In this document: piece after piece, positions 25,578-39,442 of the stretch | Numbering within the stretch: position 1 is the stretch's first letter | Layout of the letters: each line of letters begins with the position of its first letter | Notes under the pieces: generated by a model | What the model saw: only the letters and a program-made list of their open reading frames with translations | Told to the model about the DNA's origin: nothing | The model's database searches: none | Translations under genes and position numbers: made by a program | Source: an uncultured Croceitalea sp. | Lineage (GTDB): Bacteria > Bacteroidota > Bacteroidia > Flavobacteriales > Flavobacteriaceae | DNA length: 64,000 nt | NCBI GenBank assembly: GCA_947503285.1 | Contig: CANNDD010000004.1 | Span: 1-64,000, forward strand | Direction of reading: 5' to 3'

Positions 25578-28379
25578 ATGCATGCTTTGAACAAAAACGT
25601 CTCAAATCTTCGCGACGTACTCCTCTTATTTTTATGCTTTTTAACCACTGCCATATTGGTTTCCCAAGAAGGCCAAACGACGGTAAACACCGATGACAAT
25701 ACCTTGAGGTCAACATTGCTGCGATTGGAAGGGGATACTGGATATCGATTCTTCTTTTTAGAGGATTGGATAACGGATATTGAGGGAAAGACTTTTGATG
25801 GCAATGAAAATTTGAATGATATCCTTACGGAATTGCTTGAAGGTACGGACTTGAATTTTTATATTTTAGAATCTGAGAAAAGGGTATTCCTACTTAAAAA
25901 CGCGGTTGTTTATGACCAACTGCCAAATAGGTTTTTTGGCAATACCCAAGATAGTGTAAGCACGGCAAATGAAAATACTTCGGTCACCAATTTACCTCCC
26001 CCGATATTTTTAACCGAAGAACAGCAAAATAAAGAAAGAAAAAGACCCATTGTTAGGGTAGGCAAGAGCGGTTCACAACAAAAATCAAGATATACCTTAC
26101 AAGGTAGGGCAATCAACTTAAGCTCTGGTGAGGTGGTCCCGGATCTGGCCATTCGGGTCAAAGAAGCAAACGTATTTACGGCAACCGACGCCCAGGGCCG
26201 TTACTCCATAGAACTTCCCGCTGGCTATAATGTCTTGTCGGTTTCGGCCATGGGTATACAGAATATGGAACAAGAAGTCATTATGTATAGCGATGGCTCA
26301 TTTGACCTTTTTCTTGATGAAAGCTTAGAACGTCTTGACGAGGTGGTAGTTGAGGCCGATGCTGCGAAAAACGTAGAAGAAGCCATTACCGGTAGTGAGC
26401 AAATCGATTCTGAAGAGTCGAAAAATATACCTTTAGTATTAGGTGAACGCAATATATTAGAAATAGCGAAGGCCCTACCTGGTATTTCGTCTGCAGGTGA
26501 AGGGGCCACCGGTCTAAACGTACGTGGTGGTAAAACGGATCAAAACCTAGTATTGTTGGATGATGCCGTAATTTACAATCCGCAACATTTTTTCGGAATC
26601 TTTCAGGCCCTAAACCCTTTTACAACTGCAGGTGTTGACATTTATAAAGGAGCTCCACCGGTCGAATTTGGTGGGAGACTTTCCTCTGTGTTGGATATTC
26701 ATACGAAAAACGGCAATGTCGAAAAATTGGCTGGTGAAGGTTCTATCGGCCCTGTTACGGGTAACCTAGCATTGGAAATTCCGATAAAGAAAGACACGTC
26801 ATCCCTTGTCATAGGTGCCCGTGGTGCCTATGCCGATTGGATCCTTCGTTCTTTGGATGAGGAATCCTTGAACAACAGTGAGGCATCATTTTTTGACGGA
26901 ATCTTAAAGTACCACCATCGGTTCAGTGAAAATAGTGAGATCAAGGGTACGGCATATTACAGTAGGGATGCCTTTAGTATTACATCAGATTCGCTTTATA
27001 ACTATAGTAACAGGTTATTTTCGGCAAGATGGGACCACAAACTCACCGAAACCACCAATGGGGCACTTTTACTTGCAAATAGTGATTACCGCTTTGGGAT
27101 AGACTTTGATGGTGAGGCGAACAACGATTTTGATTTGAATTATAATGTTAATGAAACAGAACTTAAATATAAACTTAGAACCAGGTTAAATGACAAGCAT
27201 GCCCTTGATTATGGTATATCGGGTAAATATTACTCGGTAAACCCAGGGAGTATTGAGCCCTTAAATAACGAGTCGGATGTTCAAAGCACTTTTATTGATG
27301 AGGAGCAGGCTTTTGAGGGGGCACTGTTTATAGGGGATGAATACAAGATTTCAGACCGTTTGCTGGTGAATTTAGGTGTGCGCTATGCCTTTTTTGCGGC
27401 CCTTGGGCCAGGAACACAACGGACTTATGCCGAAGGACAGCCGCGAAACGAATCTACGGTAGTGGATACCTTGTCGTTCAGTAGTGGTGAAATCATTGAA
27501 ACATATGGCGGACCTGAAGCACGGGTATCGGCCCGTTATCTATTCACCCCAGATTTTTCCATCAAAGCCAGTTTTAACAACGCCTATCAGTTTATCCATA
27601 CCTTATCGAATAATACTACCGTTTCCCCAATTGATACTTGGAAATTGTCTGATGCCAATATTAGACCCCAAACCGGTTACCAAGCTAGTCTCGGGTTATA
27701 CAAAAATTTCAAGGATAATGAATATGAACTAAGCCTTGAAGGATATTACAAAAGCCTTGACGATGTCCTTGACTTTAGAACAGGGGCCAATCTTTTTCTA
27801 AATGAGAACGTGGAGACCGAGGTACTTCAAGGGGATGGCAAGGCATATGGCATAGAGTTTTTGGCAAAAAAGAACAAAGGCGATTTTAATGGTTGGCTAT
27901 CTTACACGTATTCAAGGTCTTTATATCGTTTTGATAGTGAATTTAGTGAAGAGCGCATTAACAACGGGGATTTTTTCCCCTCGAACTTCGATCGCCCTCA
28001 CGACGTCAGCTTAATTGCCAATTATAGACTTACCAAACGATACAGTTTTTCGGCAAATTTCGTATACCAAACAGGGCGCCCCGTTACATTTCCAATAGGG
28101 ACCTTTCGATTTAATAATGCTGATTTCGTTGCCTTCAGTAACCGCAATGAGTTTAGGATTCCTGATTTTTATCGTTTGGATTTGGGTGTCAATATCGAGG
28201 GAAATCATAAAAAACAGAAACTCGCCCATAGTTTTGTCACGATTTCTGTGTATAATGTTTTAGGTAGAAACAATCCATACTCCGTTTTTTTTGTAACGGA
28301 AGATGGCGAAGTGAGGGCATTGCAAAGTTCGATTTTTGCCATACCGATACCTTCGATCACCTATAATTTTAAATTTTGA
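25578..28379 (+). CDS. TonB-dependent receptor with STN and carboxypeptidase-regulatory-like domains
   Basis: This 933-aa outer-membrane protein starts with a signal peptide (about 1-30) and an STN-like domain (about 35-108, TGYRFFFLEDW to KRVFLLKN). Then come a proline/glutamine-rich linker, a carboxypeptidase-regulatory-like beta-sandwich (about 170-260), a plug (about 285-395, GLNVRGGKTDQNLVLLDDA, PPVEFGGRLSSVLDI) and a beta-barrel ending in aromatic F (ITYNFKF). It is the first gene of an operon with four DUF4249 lipoproteins. STN domains often take part in signalling to FecR/sigma pairs, but none is adjacent. The ligand is unknown. Confidence 0.93.
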   Translation: MHALNKNVSNLRDVLLLFLCFLTTAILVSQEGQTTVNTDDNTLRSTLLRLEGDTGYRFFFLEDWITDIEGKTFDGNENLNDILTELLEGTDLNFYILESEKRVFLLKNAVVYDQLPNRFFGNTQDSVSTANENTSVTNLPPPIFLTEEQQNKERKRPIVRVGKSGSQQKSRYTLQGRAINLSSGEVVPDLAIRVKEANVFTATDAQGRYSIELPAGYNVLSVSAMGIQNMEQEVIMYSDGSFDLFLDESLERLDEVVVEADAAKNVEEAITGSEQIDSEESKNIPLVLGERNILEIAKALPGISSAGEGATGLNVRGGKTDQNLVLLDDAVIYNPQHFFGIFQALNPFTTAGVDIYKGAPPVEFGGRLSSVLDIHTKNGNVEKLAGEGSIGPVTGNLALEIPIKKDTSSLVIGARGAYADWILRSLDEESLNNSEASFFDGILKYHHRFSENSEIKGTAYYSRDAFSITSDSLYNYSNRLFSARWDHKLTETTNGALLLANSDYRFGIDFDGEANNDFDLNYNVNETELKYKLRTRLNDKHALDYGISGKYYSVNPGSIEPLNNESDVQSTFIDEEQAFEGALFIGDEYKISDRLLVNLGVRYAFFAALGPGTQRTYAEGQPRNESTVVDTLSFSSGEIIETYGGPEARVSARYLFTPDFSIKASFNNAYQFIHTLSNNTTVSPIDTWKLSDANIRPQTGYQASLGLYKNFKDNEYELSLEGYYKSLDDVLDFRTGANLFLNENVETEVLQGDGKAYGIEFLAKKNKGDFNGWLSYTYSRSLYRFDSEFSEERINNGDFFPSNFDRPHDVSLIANYRLTKRYSFSANFVYQTGRPVTFPIGTFRFNNADFVAFSNRNEFRIPDFYRLDLGVNIEGNHKKQKLAHSFVTISVYNVLGRNNPYSVFFVTEDGEVRALQSSIFAIPIPSITYNFKF

Positions 28380-28399
28380 AAATTGCTAAAATAATAGAT

Positions 28400-29689
28400 A
28401 TGAAAAGGAAGATGATATGGCTCGGCCTACTTTGCTTAATGCATGGTCTTATCGGATGCGTTGAGGAATTCGATGCGCAAATCAATAATTTGGAAACGGC
28501 ACTGGTGGTAGATGCACGTTTAACCAACGAATTGAGACCACAATCGATTCTTTTGTCCAACACGTTTGATTTCGATGCTATCGACCCAAACCCAGAAACC
28601 GGTGCTGAAGTGGTTTTAGTGGACGATTTGAATAATACTATTGATTTTATAGAGGATTCCCCCGGGGTCTATACTTCCGCAAATGCAATGCAATTGACAC
28701 AAGGTCGAACGTATACCTTGGAAATTACGCGGACCGATGGTAGTAGGTTTTTGTCAACACCTCAAGAATTGCCAAGCGAAACCGCTATCGCAGCCATCAC
28801 GCCTACACGAGTTATAAACAATTCAGGTTTGGAAGGGGTCGCCATTGTTTTGGATGTTGAAGGCAACAGTGCCGATACAGGACCTGATTATTATAGATAT
28901 GAATACCTAGAGACCACAAAAATCGTAGCGCCGGATTTCAATCCCTTTGCATGGGATGAAGTCGACTATGATTTTTTCTGTGAAGACGATGATCCCTGGG
29001 ATGTCACCATTGCGGTAAGACAAGATCCCGCAAAGGTCTGTTTTGCTTCCGCTAATTCAAATGATCTGATTCTGGCGTCTACCGAAGAACTTGTCACGAA
29101 TAGTTTGGAAGGTTTTGAAGTACGTTTTTTATCAAAAGAAAATTATTATATCGCACATCGCTATAGCATTTTGGTGAAACAATACCATTTGGATGCCGAG
29201 GCGGCTTCTTTTTATCAGACCCTGAGTGATTTTTCGAACAATGAAAGTGTGTTCAGTAATGTACAAACGGGCTTAATCGAAGGAAACATTAATGCCGAAA
29301 ATACGGATGATTTGGTTTTAGGGTATTTCGAATTAAGCTCATACAGCGAAAAACGAATGTTTTTTAATTATACTGACCTTTTTCCTGATGAGGAATTACC
29401 GCCTTATGTAATCAACTGTGAGTTTGCAAGTGAGCCCCCGTTATACCCCGAAGGCTTTCACGCCACTGAGATTGACGGTAAGATTGTAATTGATGGCACC
29501 TCGAATTCCCCGCTCATCGATGGAATACTGGCAGGGCTAATCGGTTATCACGACACGAATGAAAATTATCAGGTCTTGGATGCCGATGGGGAACCTGATA
29601 GGGCACCTTTTGTAGTAAAACCATTGGGTTGTGTAGACTGTAGGGAGTTCGGCAGTAATGTGGCCCCTGAATTCTGGATCGAAGAGTGA
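28400..29689 (+). CDS. DUF4249 lipoprotein, paralog 1
   Basis: The 429-aa protein has a lipoprotein signal (MKRKMIWLGLLCLMHGLIGC), so it is probably anchored in the outer membrane next to the receptor encoded upstream. It shows the DUF4249 pattern: an N-terminal beta-sandwich starting with TALVVDARLTNELRPQSILL, a central part, and the C-terminal CVDCREFGSNVAPEFWIEE. I prefer the ATG at 28400, 20 bp after the receptor stop; a TTG overlapping that stop would add eight residues before the signal. It carries an acidic stretch (DYDFFCEDDDPWD) absent from the other copies. Family function is unknown. Confidence 0.88.
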   Translation: MKRKMIWLGLLCLMHGLIGCVEEFDAQINNLETALVVDARLTNELRPQSILLSNTFDFDAIDPNPETGAEVVLVDDLNNTIDFIEDSPGVYTSANAMQLTQGRTYTLEITRTDGSRFLSTPQELPSETAIAAITPTRVINNSGLEGVAIVLDVEGNSADTGPDYYRYEYLETTKIVAPDFNPFAWDEVDYDFFCEDDDPWDVTIAVRQDPAKVCFASANSNDLILASTEELVTNSLEGFEVRFLSKENYYIAHRYSILVKQYHLDAEAASFYQTLSDFSNNESVFSNVQTGLIEGNINAENTDDLVLGYFELSSYSEKRMFFNYTDLFPDEELPPYVINCEFASEPPLYPEGFHATEIDGKIVIDGTSNSPLIDGILAGLIGYHDTNENYQVLDADGEPDRAPFVVKPLGCVDCREFGSNVAPEFWIEE

Positions 29690-30990
29690 AAAAATGGATA
29701 TACATAGTAGCACTTTCTTCTCTTGCTGTTGGTTGCCTTGATGAATTGGATATCGGGATAGGTTCTGCAAATAGAACCCAAGGTATCTTGATTGTTGAAG
29801 GTGGCATAACCAATGAGCTTAAGAACCACAGTGTTGTATTGAGCCGAATAGACACTTTGGTCGATTTGGGTATTGATTCCATTTTCAACCCTTTCACACC
29901 GGTTCGTGATATCAATAGGGATTTGGTACCCTATGAGGAAAATGCAACGGTTACCGTAACCGACGCCAATGGAACGGTTTTTGAATTTGAAGAAGGGAGC
30001 CCGGGTATTTATGAATCACGAACACCATTTGCTGCCGAAATGGATAATTCCTATCAATTAAATATCGTTACCGATGATGGTCGCGGGTTTTCTTCAGAAC
30101 CCATGTCGGTTGAAGGTGTTTCTGAAATTGCTGATATTTATGCTGAAAAAACAATAAGGGGCACAGGCGCCGAAGGGGTCGGGATCTTCATTGATAATAA
30201 TTCGATATCGGGTAATGTACAAAATTTGAGGTTTACCTATGACGAGACTTTTAAGATCATTGCCCCTTTTTGGGCTGAAAAAGACTTTCTACTTACCAAT
30301 TATGATCCCTGTGCATTACCGGTGCCAACATATGATCTGGAAATCGTTGTTAGGGAGCAAGAAGAACAGGTCTGCTATGGTAATGAATCTTCGAACACCA
30401 TCATACAGGCAGAGCAGAACAACCCAGAAAGTGCGGGTATAGAACAATTTATGGTACGATTTATAGGCCGGGAAAATTATATCCTCTCCCACAGATACAG
30501 TATAGAAGTCACCCAAATGGTATCGGGCGCGGCTTCCTATGGTTTCTATGACCAACTGAACAGTTTTAGTGAGACGGGTAATGTGTTCTCTCAGGTGCAA
30601 CCAGGTTTTTTAGAAGGTAACTTATCCGCAGATAGTGGGGAGCAGGGTATCGTAATCGGTTTTTTTGATGTGGTATCGGTATCTAAAAGACGTCTATTTT
30701 TTAATTACACCGATTTCTACCCAAATGAACCATTGCCACCCTATGTTTTTAATTGCAATGAAATTTCTTCACCTGAGACACACAGATCTTTTTGTGCCAC
30801 TGGGGAAGGAGTAAATAACTGTCCACAATCGGTGATTGAACGGGTGAACTTGGACTTAATATCATACGTAAGGCCAAACGATGGCAATATTGGGGTTTGC
30901 CCGGGGCCACATGTGTTTGTTTTTAGGCCTTGTGGTGACTGTACTACCTTGGGAAGTAATGAAATACCTGAATTTTGGATTGAGGAATGA
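29686..30990 (+). CDS. DUF4249 lipoprotein, paralog 2
   Basis: This 434-aa lipoprotein (signal MKKWIYIVALSSLAVGC) starts with GTG overlapping the previous stop as GTGA. It is clearly a paralog of the next gene: both carry an insertion around FTPxRDIxRDLV, the block YDPCALPVPTYDLEIV, QPGFLEGN and a cysteine-containing tail before the C-terminal CGDCTTLGSNEIPEFWIEE. The paired cysteines suggest disulfides in the exported protein. Coupled translation with its neighbours implies equimolar production and possibly a shared complex with the receptor. Confidence 0.88.
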   Translation: MKKWIYIVALSSLAVGCLDELDIGIGSANRTQGILIVEGGITNELKNHSVVLSRIDTLVDLGIDSIFNPFTPVRDINRDLVPYEENATVTVTDANGTVFEFEEGSPGIYESRTPFAAEMDNSYQLNIVTDDGRGFSSEPMSVEGVSEIADIYAEKTIRGTGAEGVGIFIDNNSISGNVQNLRFTYDETFKIIAPFWAEKDFLLTNYDPCALPVPTYDLEIVVREQEEQVCYGNESSNTIIQAEQNNPESAGIEQFMVRFIGRENYILSHRYSIEVTQMVSGAASYGFYDQLNSFSETGNVFSQVQPGFLEGNLSADSGEQGIVIGFFDVVSVSKRRLFFNYTDFYPNEPLPPYVFNCNEISSPETHRSFCATGEGVNNCPQSVIERVNLDLISYVRPNDGNIGVCPGPHVFVFRPCGDCTTLGSNEIPEFWIEE

Positions 30991-32294
30991 GAAGAATTGT
31001 TTTATATATCGTGGTTGGTATACTTTTTTACAATTGTATTGACGAAGTGGACCTCGCCATTACAACTTCGGGCAATGACCCAGAGGATATTTTGATTGTT
31101 GAGGGTACATTGACAAATGAGCTCAAAAGGCATACGATAACACTTAGCACGATTGATACCATATTAGACCTACAAATTGATTCTGTATATACCCCTTTTA
31201 CACCACCAAGGGATATCGAAAGGGACTTGGTCAACTATGAGGAAAATGCCCAAGTAGTCGTCGTTGATGGTAATGGGGTGGAGTACGGTTTTGATGAAGT
31301 GAGTCCGGGTATTTATGAATCGTCTATCGCATTCGCGGCACAGCTAGCGACGACATACCAATTATTGATAACGACATCCAATGGCGGAAGCTTTTCTTCA
31401 AAACCAATGCAAATTCAGGGAGTCTCTGAAATCAATGGTATTCATGCCGCGAAAACAACCAGTGATACCGGTGCGGAGGGCATAGGTATTTTTATAACCA
31501 ACAATTCGATAGATGGTAATAGTCAAAATTTAAGGTTCACCTACAGTGAAACGTATAAGATTATTGCTCCTTTGTGGCGACCACGGGAGTTTAGATTGAC
31601 CAACTACGACCCGTGTGCCTTACCAGTACCGACCTATGACCTCGAAATCGTGGATCGTACTGAAGAACAGCGCGTATGCTATGCCACAGAAGAATCAAAT
31701 ACAATCGTGCAAGCACAACTGTCAAGCTTGAGTGGTAGTGGACTTGAAGATTTTATGGTACGGTTTTTAGGGCGTTCCAATTTTGCTATATCGCACCGGT
31801 ATAGTATTGAGGTAGCCCAATTGGTCTCGAGTCCTGAGGCATTCGGTTTTTATGAACAACTCGATAATTTCAGTCAATCAGACAATGTTTTTTCCCAAGT
31901 CCAACCTGGTTTTTTAGAAGGCAATATAACCGCGGATAATGGTAGGGAAGGGGCGGCAATCGGTTTTTTTGATGTGGCCTCCGTTTCTAAGACAAGGTTG
32001 TTTTTTAATTACCGTGATTTTTACCCAGATGAACCATTACCCCCGTTTCCATTCGATTGTGGGGTACATTCATCCCCTGAGTCACATGTCAGCTATTGTT
32101 TTATGGGTGAGTTTGTAAATGATTGTCCGCAGTCCATCATTGAAAGGATTGATTTAGGGGTAATTAGTTATGTTGACGTTAATAGTTTAAACCTTGGTAC
32201 CTGTCCTGGGCCTTATCTTTACGTAGCAAGCGCATGTGGTGATTGCACACGAATAGGAACAAACGTGGTACCTGAATTTTGGATAGAAGAATGA
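30987..32294 (+). CDS. DUF4249 lipoprotein, paralog 3
   Basis: The 435-aa protein overlaps paralog 2 by ATGA. The N-terminus MRRIVLYIVVGILFYNC is a short lipoprotein signal with C17. It is closest to paralog 2, sharing TNYDPCALPVPTYDLEIV, SQVQPGFLEGN and the C-terminal CGDCTRIGTNVVPEFWIEE, but many surface-type positions differ. This pattern fits an older tandem duplication followed by divergence. Function unknown, as for the family. Confidence 0.88.
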   Translation: MRRIVLYIVVGILFYNCIDEVDLAITTSGNDPEDILIVEGTLTNELKRHTITLSTIDTILDLQIDSVYTPFTPPRDIERDLVNYEENAQVVVVDGNGVEYGFDEVSPGIYESSIAFAAQLATTYQLLITTSNGGSFSSKPMQIQGVSEINGIHAAKTTSDTGAEGIGIFITNNSIDGNSQNLRFTYSETYKIIAPLWRPREFRLTNYDPCALPVPTYDLEIVDRTEEQRVCYATEESNTIVQAQLSSLSGSGLEDFMVRFLGRSNFAISHRYSIEVAQLVSSPEAFGFYEQLDNFSQSDNVFSQVQPGFLEGNITADNGREGAAIGFFDVASVSKTRLFFNYRDFYPDEPLPPFPFDCGVHSSPESHVSYCFMGEFVNDCPQSIIERIDLGVISYVDVNSLNLGTCPGPYLYVASACGDCTRIGTNVVPEFWIEE

Positions 32295-33583
32295 GAAATT
32301 GTGTTTATATACTACTTGTACTATCCTTTTTTATTACGGGATGTGTTGAAGAAATCGCTATTGCTACTGATTTACAGGCAGATATAGACATAACGGAAGT
32401 TTTGATAGTCGAGGCAACACTAACGGATGAATTGAAAAATCAAAAGGTTACCTTAAGTAGGGGGCAACAGTTTGGCAACGATAGTACCGCGGTTTTTGAG
32501 GTTGGGGCCACTGTTCAGATTGATGATGATTTAGGAAACACCTTTAATTTTATAAGTGATGCGGTGGGCAACTATTTTTCTGAAGTGCCTTTTGCCGCTC
32601 AAACCGGAAGGTTATATCAATTGCGGATTTCTACGCCGGATGGTACCAATTATCAATCTGAATTGGTTTCCAGTGCTGGGGTCTCGATAATCGATAATAT
32701 CTATGCAGAAAGGGTAATTAGCGATAGTGGGGTTGATGGAATGGCGATTTTCGTAGACAGTTCAAACCCCGATAATGATTTCAATAATTATAGGTACGTC
32801 TATGAGGAAACCTATAAAATAATTGCACCGAATTGGACATCGACCGAATTTGAGATAATCAGGGAAGAAGTGGAATTTACCTTTGATGAGGTCAATCAAG
32901 AGTTTACCGAAATTCTATACCCCGATGTGAGATTGGTGCCTAGGCAACAAGAAGAACGGGTATGTTTTAATACAGTTGCGTCAAATGATATCATATTGTC
33001 AGATGGCCTTGTTTTGAACGAGGGTCGAACGGATGGGAATTTGGTGCGTTTTATCAATAGGAATGATCCCATTTTGTCGCATCGATACAGTATTTTGGTA
33101 AATCAGTTCGTACAATCCCCAGATGCCGCTAAATTTTACAATACCTTGCTCCAATTTTCCGAAAGCGAGAGTGTTTTCAGTGCTATTCAACCTGGTTTTA
33201 TTGAAGGGAACATCGCAGCTGTGAACAATCCTGAAGCTTTGGTCATTGGTTATTTTGAAGTGGCCAGTATTGCAAGTAGAAGGCTGTTCTTTAATTATGA
33301 GGATTTTTTCCCAAATGAGGATTTACCGCCTTATTTTGATGGTTTGAACTGCGAAAGGGTATTTGCCCCTCCGTTGGGTAATCCTGAACGAGATGGGGTA
33401 TTCACTATGGACGACTGTGGTGTTCCAAGGCCTTTGATCGATTATATAAAGGCCGAGGAGATAGAATTTTTCTTGTCTTCAGGGCAAGGGCTCTGTGAAG
33501 GACCTTTTTTTGTAACACAAAGGCCTTGCGGTGATTGTACCGCATTAGGCAGTAATCGTATACCGGAATTTTGGACGGAATAA
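32291..33583 (+). CDS. DUF4249 lipoprotein, paralog 4
   Basis: The 430-aa lipoprotein (signal to ITGC at residue 18) starts at the ATG overlapping the previous stop as ATGA; an upstream TTG is less likely. It lacks the FTPxRDI insertion of paralogs 2 and 3 and instead has a longer segment EVEFTFDEVNQEFTEILYPD in the middle, but keeps LVEATLTDELKNQKVTLSR-type start, IQPGFIEGN and the C-terminal CGDCTALGSNRIPEFWTE. It is followed after 10 bp by the MG2-like gene. Confidence 0.88.
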   Translation: MRNCVYILLVLSFFITGCVEEIAIATDLQADIDITEVLIVEATLTDELKNQKVTLSRGQQFGNDSTAVFEVGATVQIDDDLGNTFNFISDAVGNYFSEVPFAAQTGRLYQLRISTPDGTNYQSELVSSAGVSIIDNIYAERVISDSGVDGMAIFVDSSNPDNDFNNYRYVYEETYKIIAPNWTSTEFEIIREEVEFTFDEVNQEFTEILYPDVRLVPRQQEERVCFNTVASNDIILSDGLVLNEGRTDGNLVRFINRNDPILSHRYSILVNQFVQSPDAAKFYNTLLQFSESESVFSAIQPGFIEGNIAAVNNPEALVIGYFEVASIASRRLFFNYEDFFPNEDLPPYFDGLNCERVFAPPLGNPERDGVFTMDDCGVPRPLIDYIKAEEIEFFLSSGQGLCEGPFFVTQRPCGDCTALGSNRIPEFWTE

Positions 33584-35404: not shown

Positions 35405-36940
35405 ATGCTCATTAAAGTCTTTGGTAGTGCCGTTTTCGGGGTGGAGGCGACTACTGTTACCGTTGAGGTCAATATTGATAAGGGAATTGGATACCATTTG
35501 GTAGGCCTGCCCGATAACGCCATTAAAGAAAGTAATTATCGTATTGCCGCAGCACTTCAGAATAATGGTTATAAAATTCCCGGGAAGAAGATAACGATCA
35601 ATATGGCACCGGCCGATCTTCGTAAAGAAGGTTCCGCCTATGATTTGACTTTAGCTTTGGGCATTTTGGCGGCCTCCAATCAAATCAAATCCGAAGACAT
35701 TGAGAAGTACTTGATTATGGGGGAGCTTTCATTGGATGGCACGGTACAACCCATTAAAGGGGCCTTACCCATCGCCATAAAGGCCAAAGAAGAAGGTTTT
35801 AAAGGGTTCATCTTACCAAAAGAAAATGCCAAAGAGGCCGCCATAGTCAATGATCTACAAGTCTATGGTGTTGATACCATAAAAGAGGTTATTGAGTTTT
35901 TTGATAAAGAAAAACCTTTAGAGCAAACCATCATTGATACCAGGGCCGAGTTTTACAAGAGTTTGGATTTCCCAGAATTTGATTTTTCTGATGTAAAGGG
36001 CCAAGAAAGTATCAAACGCTGTATGGAAATAGCCGCCGCCGGGGGACACAACATTATTCTGATAGGCCCTCCTGGCGCGGGTAAGACGATGTTGGCAAAA
36101 CGGTTGCCATCAATTTTGCCGCCAATGACCTTGCATGAGGCTTTAGAGACCACCAAGATTCATAGTGTGGTTGGTAAAGTAAAAAATATGGGCTTAATGA
36201 GCCAACGCCCTTTTCGTTCTCCCCATCACACCATTTCAGATGTTGCCCTGGTCGGGGGTGGTGCCTATCCACAACCAGGTGAGATATCGCTTTCGCATAA
36301 TGGGGTGTTGTTTTTAGATGAACTACCAGAATTTAAACGAGGGGTATTAGAAGTGATGCGACAGCCTTTAGAGGATCGGGAAGTGACCATCTCAAGAGCT
36401 CGATTTACAGTGACCTACCCTAGTAGTTTTATGTTGGTGGCCAGTATGAACCCAAGCCCTGGAGGGTATTTTAACGATCCAGACGCCCCTGTTACTTCCT
36501 CGCCAGCCGAAATGCAACGATATTTGAGTAAAATATCAGGGCCGTTATTAGATCGTATAGATATTCATATCGAGGTAACCCCAGTACCTTTTGAAAAGCT
36601 TTCTGATGATAGAAAAGGCGAGGGGAGTGTTGAAATTCGTAAAAGGGTCACAGCTGCACGGGAAATACAAACTGATCGATTTGCAGCTTTTGAAAATGTA
36701 CACTACAATGCCCAAATGAGCACCAAACAGATAAGGACGTTCTGTGTTTTGGATGTGGACTCCAAAGAATTACTGAAGAACGCAATGGAACGTTTAAATC
36801 TCTCTGCACGTGCTTACGATAGAATTTTAAAGGTAGCCAGAACAATTTGTGATTTAGCAGGAGAAAAAGAATTAAATGGGAATCATATTTCCGAAGCTAT
36901 ACAATATCGTAGTTTGGATAGGGAAGGATGGTTGGGGTAA
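35405..36940 (+). CDS. yifB: YifB/ComM-family Mg-chelatase-like AAA+ ATPase
   Basis: The 511-aa protein has an N-terminal ChlI/Lon-like domain (about 1-185, VTVEVNIDKGIGYHLVGLPD), an AAA+ Mg-chelatase core with Walker A GPPGAGKTMLAK and Walker B GVLFLDELPEF, and the C-terminal Mg_chelatase_C region ending [19 protein letters not shown]. ComM homologs promote branch migration during natural transformation. The last 60 bases counted (36841-36900) are 30% GC, clearly lower than the relic copy of the same end at 38.6 kb (50% for 38581-38640). The present 3' end may therefore be of foreign origin. Confidence 0.96.
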   Translation: MLIKVFGSAVFGVEATTVTVEVNIDKGIGYHLVGLPDNAIKESNYRIAAALQNNGYKIPGKKITINMAPADLRKEGSAYDLTLALGILAASNQIKSEDIEKYLIMGELSLDGTVQPIKGALPIAIKAKEEGFKGFILPKENAKEAAIVNDLQVYGVDTIKEVIEFFDKEKPLEQTIIDTRAEFYKSLDFPEFDFSDVKGQESIKRCMEIAAAGGHNIILIGPPGAGKTMLAKRLPSILPPMTLHEALETTKIHSVVGKVKNMGLMSQRPFRSPHHTISDVALVGGGAYPQPGEISLSHNGVLFLDELPEFKRGVLEVMRQPLEDREVTISRARFTVTYPSSFMLVASMNPSPGGYFNDPDAPVTSSPAEMQRYLSKISGPLLDRIDIHIEVTPVPFEKLSDDRKGEGSVEIRKRVTAAREIQTDRFAAFENVHYNAQMSTKQIRTFCVLDVDSKELLKNAMERLNLSARAYDRILKVARTICDLAGEKELNGNHISEAIQYRSLDREGWLG

Positions 36941-37092
36941 TATTCATGATGCAGCCACCTGCTACAAACGAGATGCCATATTTGGAAACCAGAAGATTTA
37001 GGATACCCTATTGCGCAAAGGAAAAGTAAAAAGAAAGAAAGTTAGCATTACTTAGTTATTTTGTATTCATCGAATTGAATTTCACCAATATT

Positions 37093-38385
37093 ATGATTAC
37101 CGGTCAAAGTTTAAAAAAATATTTATCTGTCAGTTATGAAGACCTAAATGAAGTTGAGTATGGATTTTTGGTTGAAAATTATTTTAAAACTCATAGCAAA
37201 GAATGGCATGAAGAAAATGAAGATGAGCCGCTTTTAAATCCTAATCAAAAAGAAAGGATTTTCTGGGAGCTGATAAGACGTCATACTATGCCTCATGGTA
37301 AAGCCAAAGAGTATTATGATTTCAGTGGCTTTATATTCCCAGATTTCACACCTTTAAGCATATTACATAGAGAAATTAGAGTTTTAAATTTTGATTTTGA
37401 CTTTTGGTATACAGGTGAAAAGATGGAGTTTTTACACGACATCAGTTTTTCATCCGCAAAATTTTTGGGAATAAGTAAATTTAAAGGCGTTAAATTCTAT
37501 GGAAACGTAGATTTTTATGCAACAGAATTTTTAAGAGATGTTCATTTTACAGACGCCTACTTTTTTAAAGAAGCCAGATTTATAGGTACAGAATTTGATG
37601 CGAAAGCATTATTTATACAGACCCATTTTTCAAGAGAACAGCGTACTATATTTCATCGTTGTTTAAAAAATAAAAATAAAGAAGAAAAATTCGAATATTC
37701 ACCTCCAAACTATCAAATAGAATTTAATTTTAGTGATGTCGAATTTAATAGTTTGATTAGTTTTAAAGGGATTCATTTCCACAAAACTGATTTTACTAGA
37801 GCAAATATTGTCAAAGATCTTCGATTTGAAGAATGCAAATGGAATGGCAGTCGTAGATTAGTAATCTTTAAAGAAAATAAAACTTTTAGGATTCGAAATA
37901 GGAGTAATTATGATTTTGAAAACTACCTTGAGCGCTATCGACAAATAAAATTGAACTATGCTTCTTTTCAAGAATGGGAACTTTCTGGAAAGGCATACAG
38001 AAGTGAAATGTACATACGACAATGGTTGGCATTCTTTGAGATATTTAATTATAAAAAGCCACTCATGATACCTATTCGGGTTATTGAGTTTCTAATGTCT
38101 TCATTTTATGGAATCTTTTCAGGGTATACCCAAAGCATTACTAAGCCTTTTATATGGGTAACAGTATCTACACTTTTCATATTTCCAATTTTCTATAATG
38201 AATGTTCATTTATTGAATTATTTAGTTGTAATTATTCAAAGACATTAGAAATAAGTGCAAAGAATACTTTTCCATTCTATAAGCTCGGGAATACGTACTT
38301 CTGGATAGCACTTGTCCAAAAAATATTCAGCAGCACACTTCTTACCTTTTTTATTCTTGCGCTGAGAAAAAGATATAAGCAGTAG
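37093..38385 (+). CDS. pentapeptide-repeat protein with C-terminal transmembrane segments
   Basis: This 430-aa protein has three parts. Residues about 100-180 and 210-250 carry A(D/N)F-type pentapeptide repeats with F every five residues (FSSAKFLGISKFKGVKFYGN, VDFYATEFLRDVHFTDAYFF). A helical motif follows near 279-310 (YRQIKLNYASFQEWELSGKA). Two hydrophobic segments lie at about 352-368 and 404-424 with a basic tail (LRKRYKQ). Such repeat-plus-channel-like membrane proteins occur widely in accessory regions; function is unknown. I chose the ATG at 37093 over an upstream TTG. The gene is AT-rich (25% GC in 37081-37140) and lies between yifB and a relic of the yifB 3' end. Confidence 0.8.
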   Translation: MITGQSLKKYLSVSYEDLNEVEYGFLVENYFKTHSKEWHEENEDEPLLNPNQKERIFWELIRRHTMPHGKAKEYYDFSGFIFPDFTPLSILHREIRVLNFDFDFWYTGEKMEFLHDISFSSAKFLGISKFKGVKFYGNVDFYATEFLRDVHFTDAYFFKEARFIGTEFDAKALFIQTHFSREQRTIFHRCLKNKNKEEKFEYSPPNYQIEFNFSDVEFNSLISFKGIHFHKTDFTRANIVKDLRFEECKWNGSRRLVIFKENKTFRIRNRSNYDFENYLERYRQIKLNYASFQEWELSGKAYRSEMYIRQWLAFFEIFNYKKPLMIPIRVIEFLMSSFYGIFSGYTQSITKPFIWVTVSTLFIFPIFYNECSFIELFSCNYSKTLEISAKNTFPFYKLGNTYFWIALVQKIFSSTLLTFFILALRKRYKQ

Positions 38386-38563
38386 CGTTTAAAAAGGAGT
38401 ACAAGAACTCGATTTTGAAGGGATTAAGATATTGATGTTTTTATGAGCTATTCAAATATAAATATGAAATATAAGTTGAACTTAATTACTTTCATTGACT
38501 ATATCTATTAAGTTTATAGACTGAATGTAGTGAGAACGAATCGACTTATAATTAAATTTTATG

Positions 38564-38677
38564 ATTAAAGTAGCCCGTACCATGGCCGATTTGGAAGGTG
38601 CCGTGTCAATTACGGGGAATCATATCAGTGAGGCCATTCAATATCGCTCTTTGGATCGAGAGGGTTGGTTGGGGTAG
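38564..38677 (+). pseudogene. relic of a second yifB 3' end
   Basis: Thirty-seven codons plus stop match the C-terminus of YifB encoded upstream: [12 protein letters not shown], then a stretch of 20 residues ending REGWLG that is identical in protein. In those 20 codons, 10 differ synonymously between the copies, so this is not a recent duplication but a diverged homolog. Nothing of the rest of yifB is present; homology begins abruptly after AT-rich sequence. An ATG one codon before gives a 38-aa frame, but it is best read as a displaced gene end. The rest of the 38386-38713 gap is AT-rich and shows nothing else. Confidence 0.88.
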
Positions 38678-38713: not shown

Positions 38714-39319
38714 TTATTCTTTATACTGGCAGTACTCGTTAAAATTCCATACCAAGTCCTCTATCTCGTAGTCCTTTATGTTTTCACTTGAAATAATATC
38801 CATAAGTTCTTTACAGTCTATAAAACACTTCCCTAACTTCTTCTTCCATGCTTTTTTATTTTTTACGACTGGACAAGGAAAATCCATGTCTTTTCTTTTG
38901 ACATAATAGACAGTTGTTAAAACTTTTTGACTTCCACCCATCTGCCCAAGAGTTGACTGATTTACACTCCAATAACTATCGTCATAGGCATACAATGTCA
39001 TAAAACCTGATTCTATTACGCGATATAGTCGAGCACTATATTTATCCATTTTTACATATTCATAAGCTACTATTTCAAAACCATTATCAAACTCTAATCT
39101 TTTAACCTGGTCACTTTTCCAAACATCTGGCTTATCTTCCAGATCCATTCTAAAAAGTATTTTTTTGTTTTTTGTAAACCTATTCATTTTGATTTCTCCA
39201 AACCCTTTAAACTCAGTTCCATCTTTGAGGATTAGTGTAGCTTCTTTAGTTTGTCCATTGACAATTTTAAATGCTAACAAAGCAAAACTTACAATAATTG
39301 TTTTCAAGTAATACTTCAT
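38714..39319 (-). CDS. exported protein of unknown function
   Basis: I recognise no named family. From the ATG at 39319 the 201-aa product has a signal peptide (MKYYLKTIIVSFALLAFKIV, then NGQ) and a beta-rich mature part opening with ATLILKDGTEFKGFGEIKMN, a pattern common in small Bacteroidota exported proteins. Two cysteines (CPVV, CFIDCKEL) lie near the C-terminus. A-rich sequence (AAAGAAAAACAA) precedes this ATG; the frame extends 27 residues further upstream, but those are not signal-like. The gene is AT-rich and lies just beyond the yifB relic, so it may belong to the same accessory patch. Confidence 0.7.
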   Translation of the reverse strand: MKYYLKTIIVSFALLAFKIVNGQTKEATLILKDGTEFKGFGEIKMNRFTKNKKILFRMDLEDKPDVWKSDQVKRLEFDNGFEIVAYEYVKMDKYSARLYRVIESGFMTLYAYDDSYWSVNQSTLGQMGGSQKVLTTVYYVKRKDMDFPCPVVKNKKAWKKKLGKCFIDCKELMDIISSENIKDYEIEDLVWNFNEYCQYKE

Positions 39320-39442
39320 TTGTTTTTCTTTAAAACTAGCCAATTCGATTACCATTCGTTTGTACATTGCGAACTCTAGATCAGGTTGGTATGTGAACAT
39401 ATTTTTCAGGATAAGCCGTATAAACTGTTATAAGTCAAAATT

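Follow-up and report, generated by a model that had tools for sequence, protein, structure and literature searches.

A cargo gene between two yifB (comM) 3' ends in a Croceitalea genome and recurrent orphan yifB ends in Flavobacteriales

Two yifB 3' ends in the window

The DNA analyzed here (the window) is a stretch of 64,000 nucleotides from an uncultured Croceitalea sp. of the Flavobacteriaceae (GCA_947503285.1, contig CANNDD010000004.1, positions 1 to 64,000; genome G000), in which a complete yifB (comM) gene is followed about 1.6 kb downstream by an orphan second yifB 3' end. The gene (35405-36940, forward strand) is open over 511 aa and encodes ChlI, Mg_chelatase and Mg_chelatase_C domains, the last with a match above the cut-off; its product shares 89-93% amino acid identity with those of the five congeners whose matches are complete or almost so. 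The attached 3' end of yifB comprises codons 476-511 and the stop codon (36830-36940, forward strand). The orphan end (38561-38677, forward strand) is a still open frame of 38 codons ending in WLG, detected independently by Mg_chelatase_C (E 2.2e-7) and by a YifB protein search (E 6.2e-12). Its homology to yifB begins at codon 476 (position 38567), and the last 36-37 codons of the gene are copied.

A preliminary description of this DNA had reported a second yifB end terminating at 38677, and its observations hold: the last 20 residues of gene tail and orphan are identical with 10 of the 20 codons different, and two 60-base stretches have a GC content of 30.0% in the attached end (36841-36900) and 50.0% in the orphan (38581-38640). 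Over 38 aligned codons, 13 are identical, 15 synonymous and 10 non-synonymous, and the divergence figure for tail and orphan (65.8%) compares with 64.8-81.5% between the tails of congeners. Because this divergence is congener-like and synonymous codons outnumber non-synonymous ones, both ends probably evolved as parts of working genes. The third-position GC of yifB is 24% in codons 475-511 versus 41% in codons 1-474, a borderline contrast (Fisher p ~0.05); it drops after codon 475 (4/25 vs 9/25) but is also low at codons 376-425 (6/25 twice).

The duplicated 3' end is not a general habit of genes in yifB loci. The last 45 residues of 434 open reading frames (ORFs) of at least 150 aa were searched nearby in 574 kb of loci, DNA that was chosen around yifB and is enriched for yifB relics, so that genes are compared inside the same loci only. 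Tail copies of other genes outside host ORFs numbered just three (one each in G195, G089 and G057), the rest belonging to yifB, and the remaining matches are paralogues within ORFs.

The insert, its cargo and the attachment arm

The insert between the two yifB ends (36941-38560) comprises 1620 bases with a GC content of 29.9%, compared with 40.7% for the whole window. Between the copies, a single ORF is 60 aa or longer (37075-38385, forward strand); it encodes a pentapeptide-repeat protein (Pentapeptide_3, E 8e-11); this cargo ORF is listed with a TTG start and has an in-frame ATG at 37093, and its product has, by eye, a hydrophobic C-terminal region. No other Pfam family was matched by this single ORF, and no recombinase or integrase was seen in the insert, in agreement with the preliminary description. 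Cargo matches occur in 4 of 299 family genomes, the window's included, and the cargo is therefore accessory DNA. The homologues in G097 and G111 lie within 15-16 kb of DNA that has no yifB match, and that of G111 is placed behind ORFs resembling type I restriction-modification genes. PADLOC returned no match, and thus no defense match, for the window's cargo gene, and a single-sequence structure prediction of the cargo protein was unusable (mean pLDDT 35).

Adjoining the orphan end is a presumed attachment arm of 26 bp (38541-38566), recognized by its similarity to the corresponding DNA of the congeners G006 (21/26 identical) and G007 (20/26), whose cargo is unrelated; none of 200000 random pairs reaches 21. 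Genome-wide PF00589 matches number 13 in G000, 13 in G006 and 16 in G007, none of them tied to the yifB site.

Comparison within the genus

Eight genomes of the genus were searched for yifB ends; G002, G004 and G005 are not judgeable for a relic since their contigs or DNA end too soon. In G006 and G007 an orphan yifB end follows the gene at a distance of about 2.3 kb, and their cargo, 87.6% alike between the two genomes over 2.5 kb, encodes a 723-aa protein on the opposite strand with no Pfam match at 0.01. These congeners thus hold different cargo at the same place, as the preliminary description had anticipated. Gene tail and orphan match at 98.1% within G006 and 97.2% within G007, whereas G006 and G007 differ from each other; judging from these sequences, exchange between the two ends would be the simplest reading. 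The orphan frame is open with an ATG in all three codon-476 loci of the genus (G000, G006 and G007). Relatives do not all carry both copies: no relic was found in the 8.6 and 7.5 kb examined in G001 and G003, which have other genes at the site.

Recurrence of orphan ends in the family and the order

Among 249 genomes surveyed in the family, the yifB C-terminus was matched in at least 221. Two or more matches occur in at least 19 genomes and an orphan behind an open yifB on the same contig in at least 12 of the 221, the window's genome being included in both counts; among the matches listed, 11 of the 18 other genomes qualify (G020, G108, G121, G129, G133, G136, G151, G195, G201, G244 and G254). 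G053 has a same-contig orphan but one in-frame stop in yifB, and raises the count to at least 13. G006 and G007, which come from the genus search, stand outside the 12, and G089 (orphan on another contig) and G233 were not counted as having downstream relics. Second matches in G042, G101, G169 and G216 were rejected as relics (contig ends, a distant paralogue, and, on a small contig, a copy with 99.8% identity). When 20 loci were scanned locally, two orphans of 17 codons (G039, G237) and a weak interior fragment (G026) came to light; another 19 yifB loci contained no orphan pieces, and the gene of G056 among them proved to be cut. In the nearly complete family genomes G037 and G149, yifB was not matched at all.

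In the order, yifB was matched in 200 of 296 genomes. When eight order genomes with extra matches were searched again, orphan pieces were found behind yifB in seven (G315, G380, G482, G528, G466, G338 and G356); the second match of G470 is a full-length ORF and was rejected as a relic. Relic lengths vary from about 17 to 240 codons, and several relics outside the codon-476 loci of the genus carry stops or frameshifts. An empty site, which the preliminary description had proposed to look for, was found in a sister pair other than the window's species: the flank behind the G020 orphan matches the yifB flank of G250, whose site is empty.

The orphan of G233 (L032) adjoins four related ORFs of 104-273 aa, and G039 has similar genes between yifB and orphan. 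In G201 (L025, L062, L026), 39 kb separate yifB from a 98.5% identical orphan, with a second, older orphan behind; this stretch, rich in sulfatase-, TonB/SusD- and lipoprotein-like ORFs according to the ORF list, reads as serial insertion.

Orphan ends begin at recurrent codons. Starts were assigned by eye, with two starts each from G136 and G244 and with G006/G007 counted once, leaving out eight decayed, short or interior pieces (G039, G237, G133, G053, G466, G026, the third G244 piece and the second G338 piece). The resulting 23 starts form 26 pairs within 2 codons of each other, compared with 4.5 expected and a maximum of 21 in 20000 random draws. Six orphans start at codons ~275-280, one of them (G338) without an evident large serine recombinase (LSR) arm, and two (G201, G254) start at 274-275 with a different arm. 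Other starts fall at codon 396 (G315, G528), at 475-476 (the window's genome, G006/G007, G201 and G233) and at 480 (G108, G121, G356); single starts include that at 350 (G380), which coincides with a point at which a number of viral contigs also stop. A shared start of G020 and G482 was dropped because the two lie about 9 codons apart on inspection. By eye, yifB is also cut at codon 476 in G089, beside a small serine recombinase at the contig end, and in the viral record L111, in which serine and tyrosine recombinases were not found and which may be a fragment. The yifB-like genes of other viral contigs (L097, L099, L117-L137) start or stop at other recurrent codons, ~215 (Walker A) and ~350, and several of these contigs hold a serine recombinase nearby.

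Large serine recombinase elements that cut yifB

Among 17 genomes searched again, five contain a yifB that is split by an element of 10-33 kb, at about codon 280 in G162, G056, G070 and G046 and at about codon 295 in G025; these five cut genes and the re-completed loci (at least 12 of 221), in which an orphan follows an open gene, are not comparable as rates. Each cutting element encodes an LSR with Resolvase, Recombinase and Zn_ribbon_recom domains (5/5, the zinc ribbon of G025 being below the cut-off). The G046 element is a prophage, with terminase, tape measure and endolysin matches in three of four proteins tested (PHROGs). In four of the five cut genes the LSR is placed towards the 5' part of yifB, which it directly adjoins in three. 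The junctions, read by eye, give an attB of ...CCGCATCACACAATCAGTGATGT|GGC..., an attR arm of ACCACCACATTATA...GATGT and an attL arm that is its mirror.

An alignment of four LSRs, run against the species genomes of GTDB r220, yielded 40 loci. By hand count, yifB is cut near codon 280 in 27 of these, with the LSR no more than about 1 kb away in 26, and four of the 27 belong to genomes already seen; of the other loci, ten show no yifB and three only 5' pieces. Orphans at the LSR crossover (codon ~280, GATGT core) occur in G136, G195 and G244, where the orphan arm scores higher against the LSR attR than against the native attB (21 v 9 and 13 v 9 in G136, 21 v 4 in G195, 14 v 4 in G244). From their sequences, these orphans (two of them in G136) read as old LSR attachment sites with yifB apparently made whole in front. 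The junction of the window lies at codon 476 and not at this crossover.

Large and small serine recombinases occur together in G162, G056, G070 and G025. Several LSR elements (L082, L084, L086, L087, L182) carry a second serine recombinase of about 200 aa, as do the staphylococcal cassette chromosome (SCC; ccrA) and Dehalococcoides islands (DsiA). Within LSR-bearing loci there are also relatives of the 243-aa cargo of G201, of the 718-aa gene of G001, and of the small serine recombinases of G159, G223 and G244.

That yifB/comM is an insertion hotspot had been presented as potentially notable in Bacteroidota. The site is indeed recurrent in Flavobacteriales, but the hotspot itself is not new: Mg-chelatase/ATP-dependent protease genes are given as the targets of 12.4% of predicted site-specific large serine integrases by Durrant et al. 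2022 (PMC10083194), and comM is described as an insertion target in other phyla (PMC11472951, PMC4774983).

Origin of the insert

Two ends, an insert, recurrent boundary codons, a shared codon-476 arm and, in relatives, LSR arms at codon ~280 are what the loci present directly. Considering these, the insert is rather likely to be what remains of an integrative element that inserted into yifB, in a site-specific manner, at about codon 476 (KVAR motif). The yifB gene of Flavobacteriales would then serve as a landing site for integrative elements at several fixed codons, and the codon-476 arm would be the attachment site of a recombinase. That recombinase would since have gone from the insert, leaving one cargo gene with a complete 3' end before it and another end behind. 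The attached 3' end may have been borne by the element, as prophage e14 does for icd, or restored via recombination with another yifB; later exchange between the copies would keep the ends alike in G006, G007, G201 and G195, and not in the window's genome. As an effect, foreign DNA would persist at a competence gene whose reading frame stays complete. The preliminary description had proposed that an element entered at the 3' end of yifB and that an older end lies behind it, and this is supported. Entry by transformation through the homologous end, which it had offered as an option, is as a primary event less likely than site-specific insertion: the same start codons recur among orphans, some of which bear attachment arms.

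Several observations weigh against this reading. A complete codon-476 element with a recombinase and its own yifB end was not found, and PF00239 has no match in the whole genomes of G000, G006 and G007. No full-length yifB occurs in any of the 40 LSR loci, within the DNA examined. Nor did the re-completed loci yield an LSR in tblastn searches whose queries were two LSRs and six small serine recombinases (other integrase classes were not profile-searched there). The conversion of a cut gene into a re-completed one is therefore not directly observed. The orphan end of G233 lies 447 kb from yifB, which the model leaves unexplained, and the repeat of G315 continues for 34 bp beyond the stop codon, an extension not predicted for an old end borne by an element. 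Lastly, gene tail and orphan of the window are equally far from the five congeners (69-77% and 68-75% identity, respectively). The origins proposed for the two ends, foreign for the attached one and native for the orphan, are therefore not supported, and neither congener identity nor third-position GC appears to decide which end is native.

How the gene became whole admits two accounts. Mobile DNA may have brought its own yifB codons from 476 to the stop, so that the gene was never broken, an account that is quite plausible while falling short of probable. It is favored by the similarity of gene and orphan, which in most of 17 loci stops at or very near the stop codon (by eye), by the codon-476 arm shared despite different cargo, by the two independently evolved-looking tails of the window (15 synonymous, 10 non-synonymous), and by a layout that is the same as that of e14, which is described as leaving a 163-bp pseudo-icd (PMC6379469). 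However, no intact carrier was seen. In the whole genes at codon-280 loci, moreover, native yifB sequence continues through the crossover and a P' arm is missing (by eye), an arrangement not expected from an LSR attP that brought its own end. The match between tail and orphan of the same genome (97-98.5% in G006, G007, G195 over codons 334-511, and G201) would in addition need later exchange.

Native sequence across the crossover instead fits an account in which an element split yifB and recombination with the yifB of another cell, by natural transformation, restored the gene, removed the integrase end, and left the cargo and the old end. This salvage, tentatively held and somewhat doubtful, agrees with the lack of whole genes in the LSR loci and of LSRs in the re-completed ones, and with the position of the LSR beside the yifB 5' part in most cut genes, the side expected to be lost. 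Gene tails are often conspecific-like, duplicated flank is retained in G315 (34 bp) and G254, and recent recombination tracts over comM are reported for 35 of 386 complete-comM Acinetobacter baumannii genomes (PMC11472951). Yet after a junction at random, native flank would be expected behind the restored stop, and a blastn flank match is absent in 13 of 16 loci; the matches in G136 and G244 correspond to yifB pieces nested there, which leaves G254 as the single locus that reads as retained flank. The window's own sequence does not appear to choose between an element-borne end and salvage.

Two further explanations dispense with a mobile element or with a relic. Homology-facilitated illegitimate recombination yields one-sided insertions, and a segmental duplication or an illegitimate transformation event ending in yifB by chance would accord with the variable length of the relics (~17-240 codons); the boundary clustering, the LSR arms at the G136, G195 and G244 orphans, and the arm common to G000 and G006/G007 make this improbable. 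It is still less credible, to the point of being very improbable, that the orphan encodes a functional 38-aa product whose ATG lies within the shared arm. The frame is open with an ATG in 3/3 codon-476 loci of the genus, but this ATG sits in the shared arm and so is not independent, and several other relics have stops or frameshifts.

Comparison with known systems

The proposed site-specific integration at codon 476 has a close parallel in prophage e14 of Escherichia coli icd, described as integrated in the 3' part of a conserved gene with a replacement end in front and the old end behind (PMC6379469). The window likewise has a complete gene before the insert and another 3' end behind it, with a duplicated end of about 111 bp versus 163 bp in the account of e14. 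In contrast to e14, which is a prophage, the window's insert consists of one cargo gene and has no recombinase.

The comM islands of the AbaR/Tn7-like type carry tni/tns transposition genes and a 5-bp target duplication. The window's insert shows neither: it has one pentapeptide ORF, and the repeat is the yifB end of about 111 bp, not 5 bp. The two orphans of relatives that start at codons 274-275 (G201, G254) might lie at the AbaR site. The target of SCC is the end of rlmH. A ccrAB-type recombinase pair, as in SCC, is missing from the window's insert, whereas pairs similar to those of SCC and of the ssrA islands occur in four LSR elements of relatives. AbaR and Tn7-like islands of Acinetobacter baumannii are also located in comM, which as described is interrupted in the MgCh domain (PMC11472951, PMC7508600); the window's insert differs in lying behind a complete gene and in offering, at 60 aa or more, no further ORF as a candidate tni gene. 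The Dehalococcoides ssrA islands and SCCmec, as reported in PMC3146451, combine an LSR with a second serine recombinase of ~200 aa; the 3' ends of their targets form direct repeats, and insertion is serial. The ssrA islands, however, target the tmRNA gene and not yifB. The LSR elements in Mg-chelatase/ComM genes treated in PMC10083194 have the same target family, and the yifB-cutting elements of relatives carry the same recombinase class; those elements are described as disrupting the gene, whereas the window's locus is complete, at another codon, and without a recombinase.

Neighboring genes

Behind the orphan end lies an AT-rich ORF of 228 aa (38714-39400, reverse strand), followed by a YdjM-family gene common to G001. 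The ORF has no Pfam or PADLOC match and is possibly the remainder of an earlier insert. In front of yifB, four adjoining genes of 434-437 aa (28376-33583, forward strand) form a tandem paralogue family with about 41-68% identity over the last 45 residues.

Defense genes, competence and implications

Two loci have a PADLOC match between yifB and orphan, to an OLD/GajA-like ATPase in G315 and to a type II methyltransferase in G380. Large TIR-domain proteins, ThsB-like in PADLOC, lie within a few kb of yifB in G136, G195 and G190 (L023, L022, L071), representing three genera, and outside the interval between yifB and orphan. Re-completed yifB islands as defense islands are a lead only.

In Riemerella anatipestifer, three transposon mutants of yifB are reported to transform at 1.3e-7-3.6e-7 compared with 5.5e-5 (PMC8459023), and yifB thus matters for transformation in this order. 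The hotspot at yifB/comM is already known and its recurrent re-completed form in Flavobacteriales is new; in the literature searched, no paper was found on re-completed, recombinase-less yifB islands. A broader proposal, speculative and on balance unlikely, is that the comM/yifB site of Flavobacteriales hosts a standing class of such cargo islands. The working comM end would be kept or acquired and the host would stay transformable; the cargo, sometimes defense genes, would spread by ComM-promoted homologous transformation, and the yifB ends would be kept alike by recombination.

If true, this would lead from a phage that breaks the gene to a harmless island carried by transformation. Mobile elements that disrupt competence genes have been read as winning a conflict with transformation, and a gene that is complete again with the cargo retained would be the other half. 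Orphan yifB ends would also provide a marker, readable from sequence alone, for old integration sites and candidate cargo genes.

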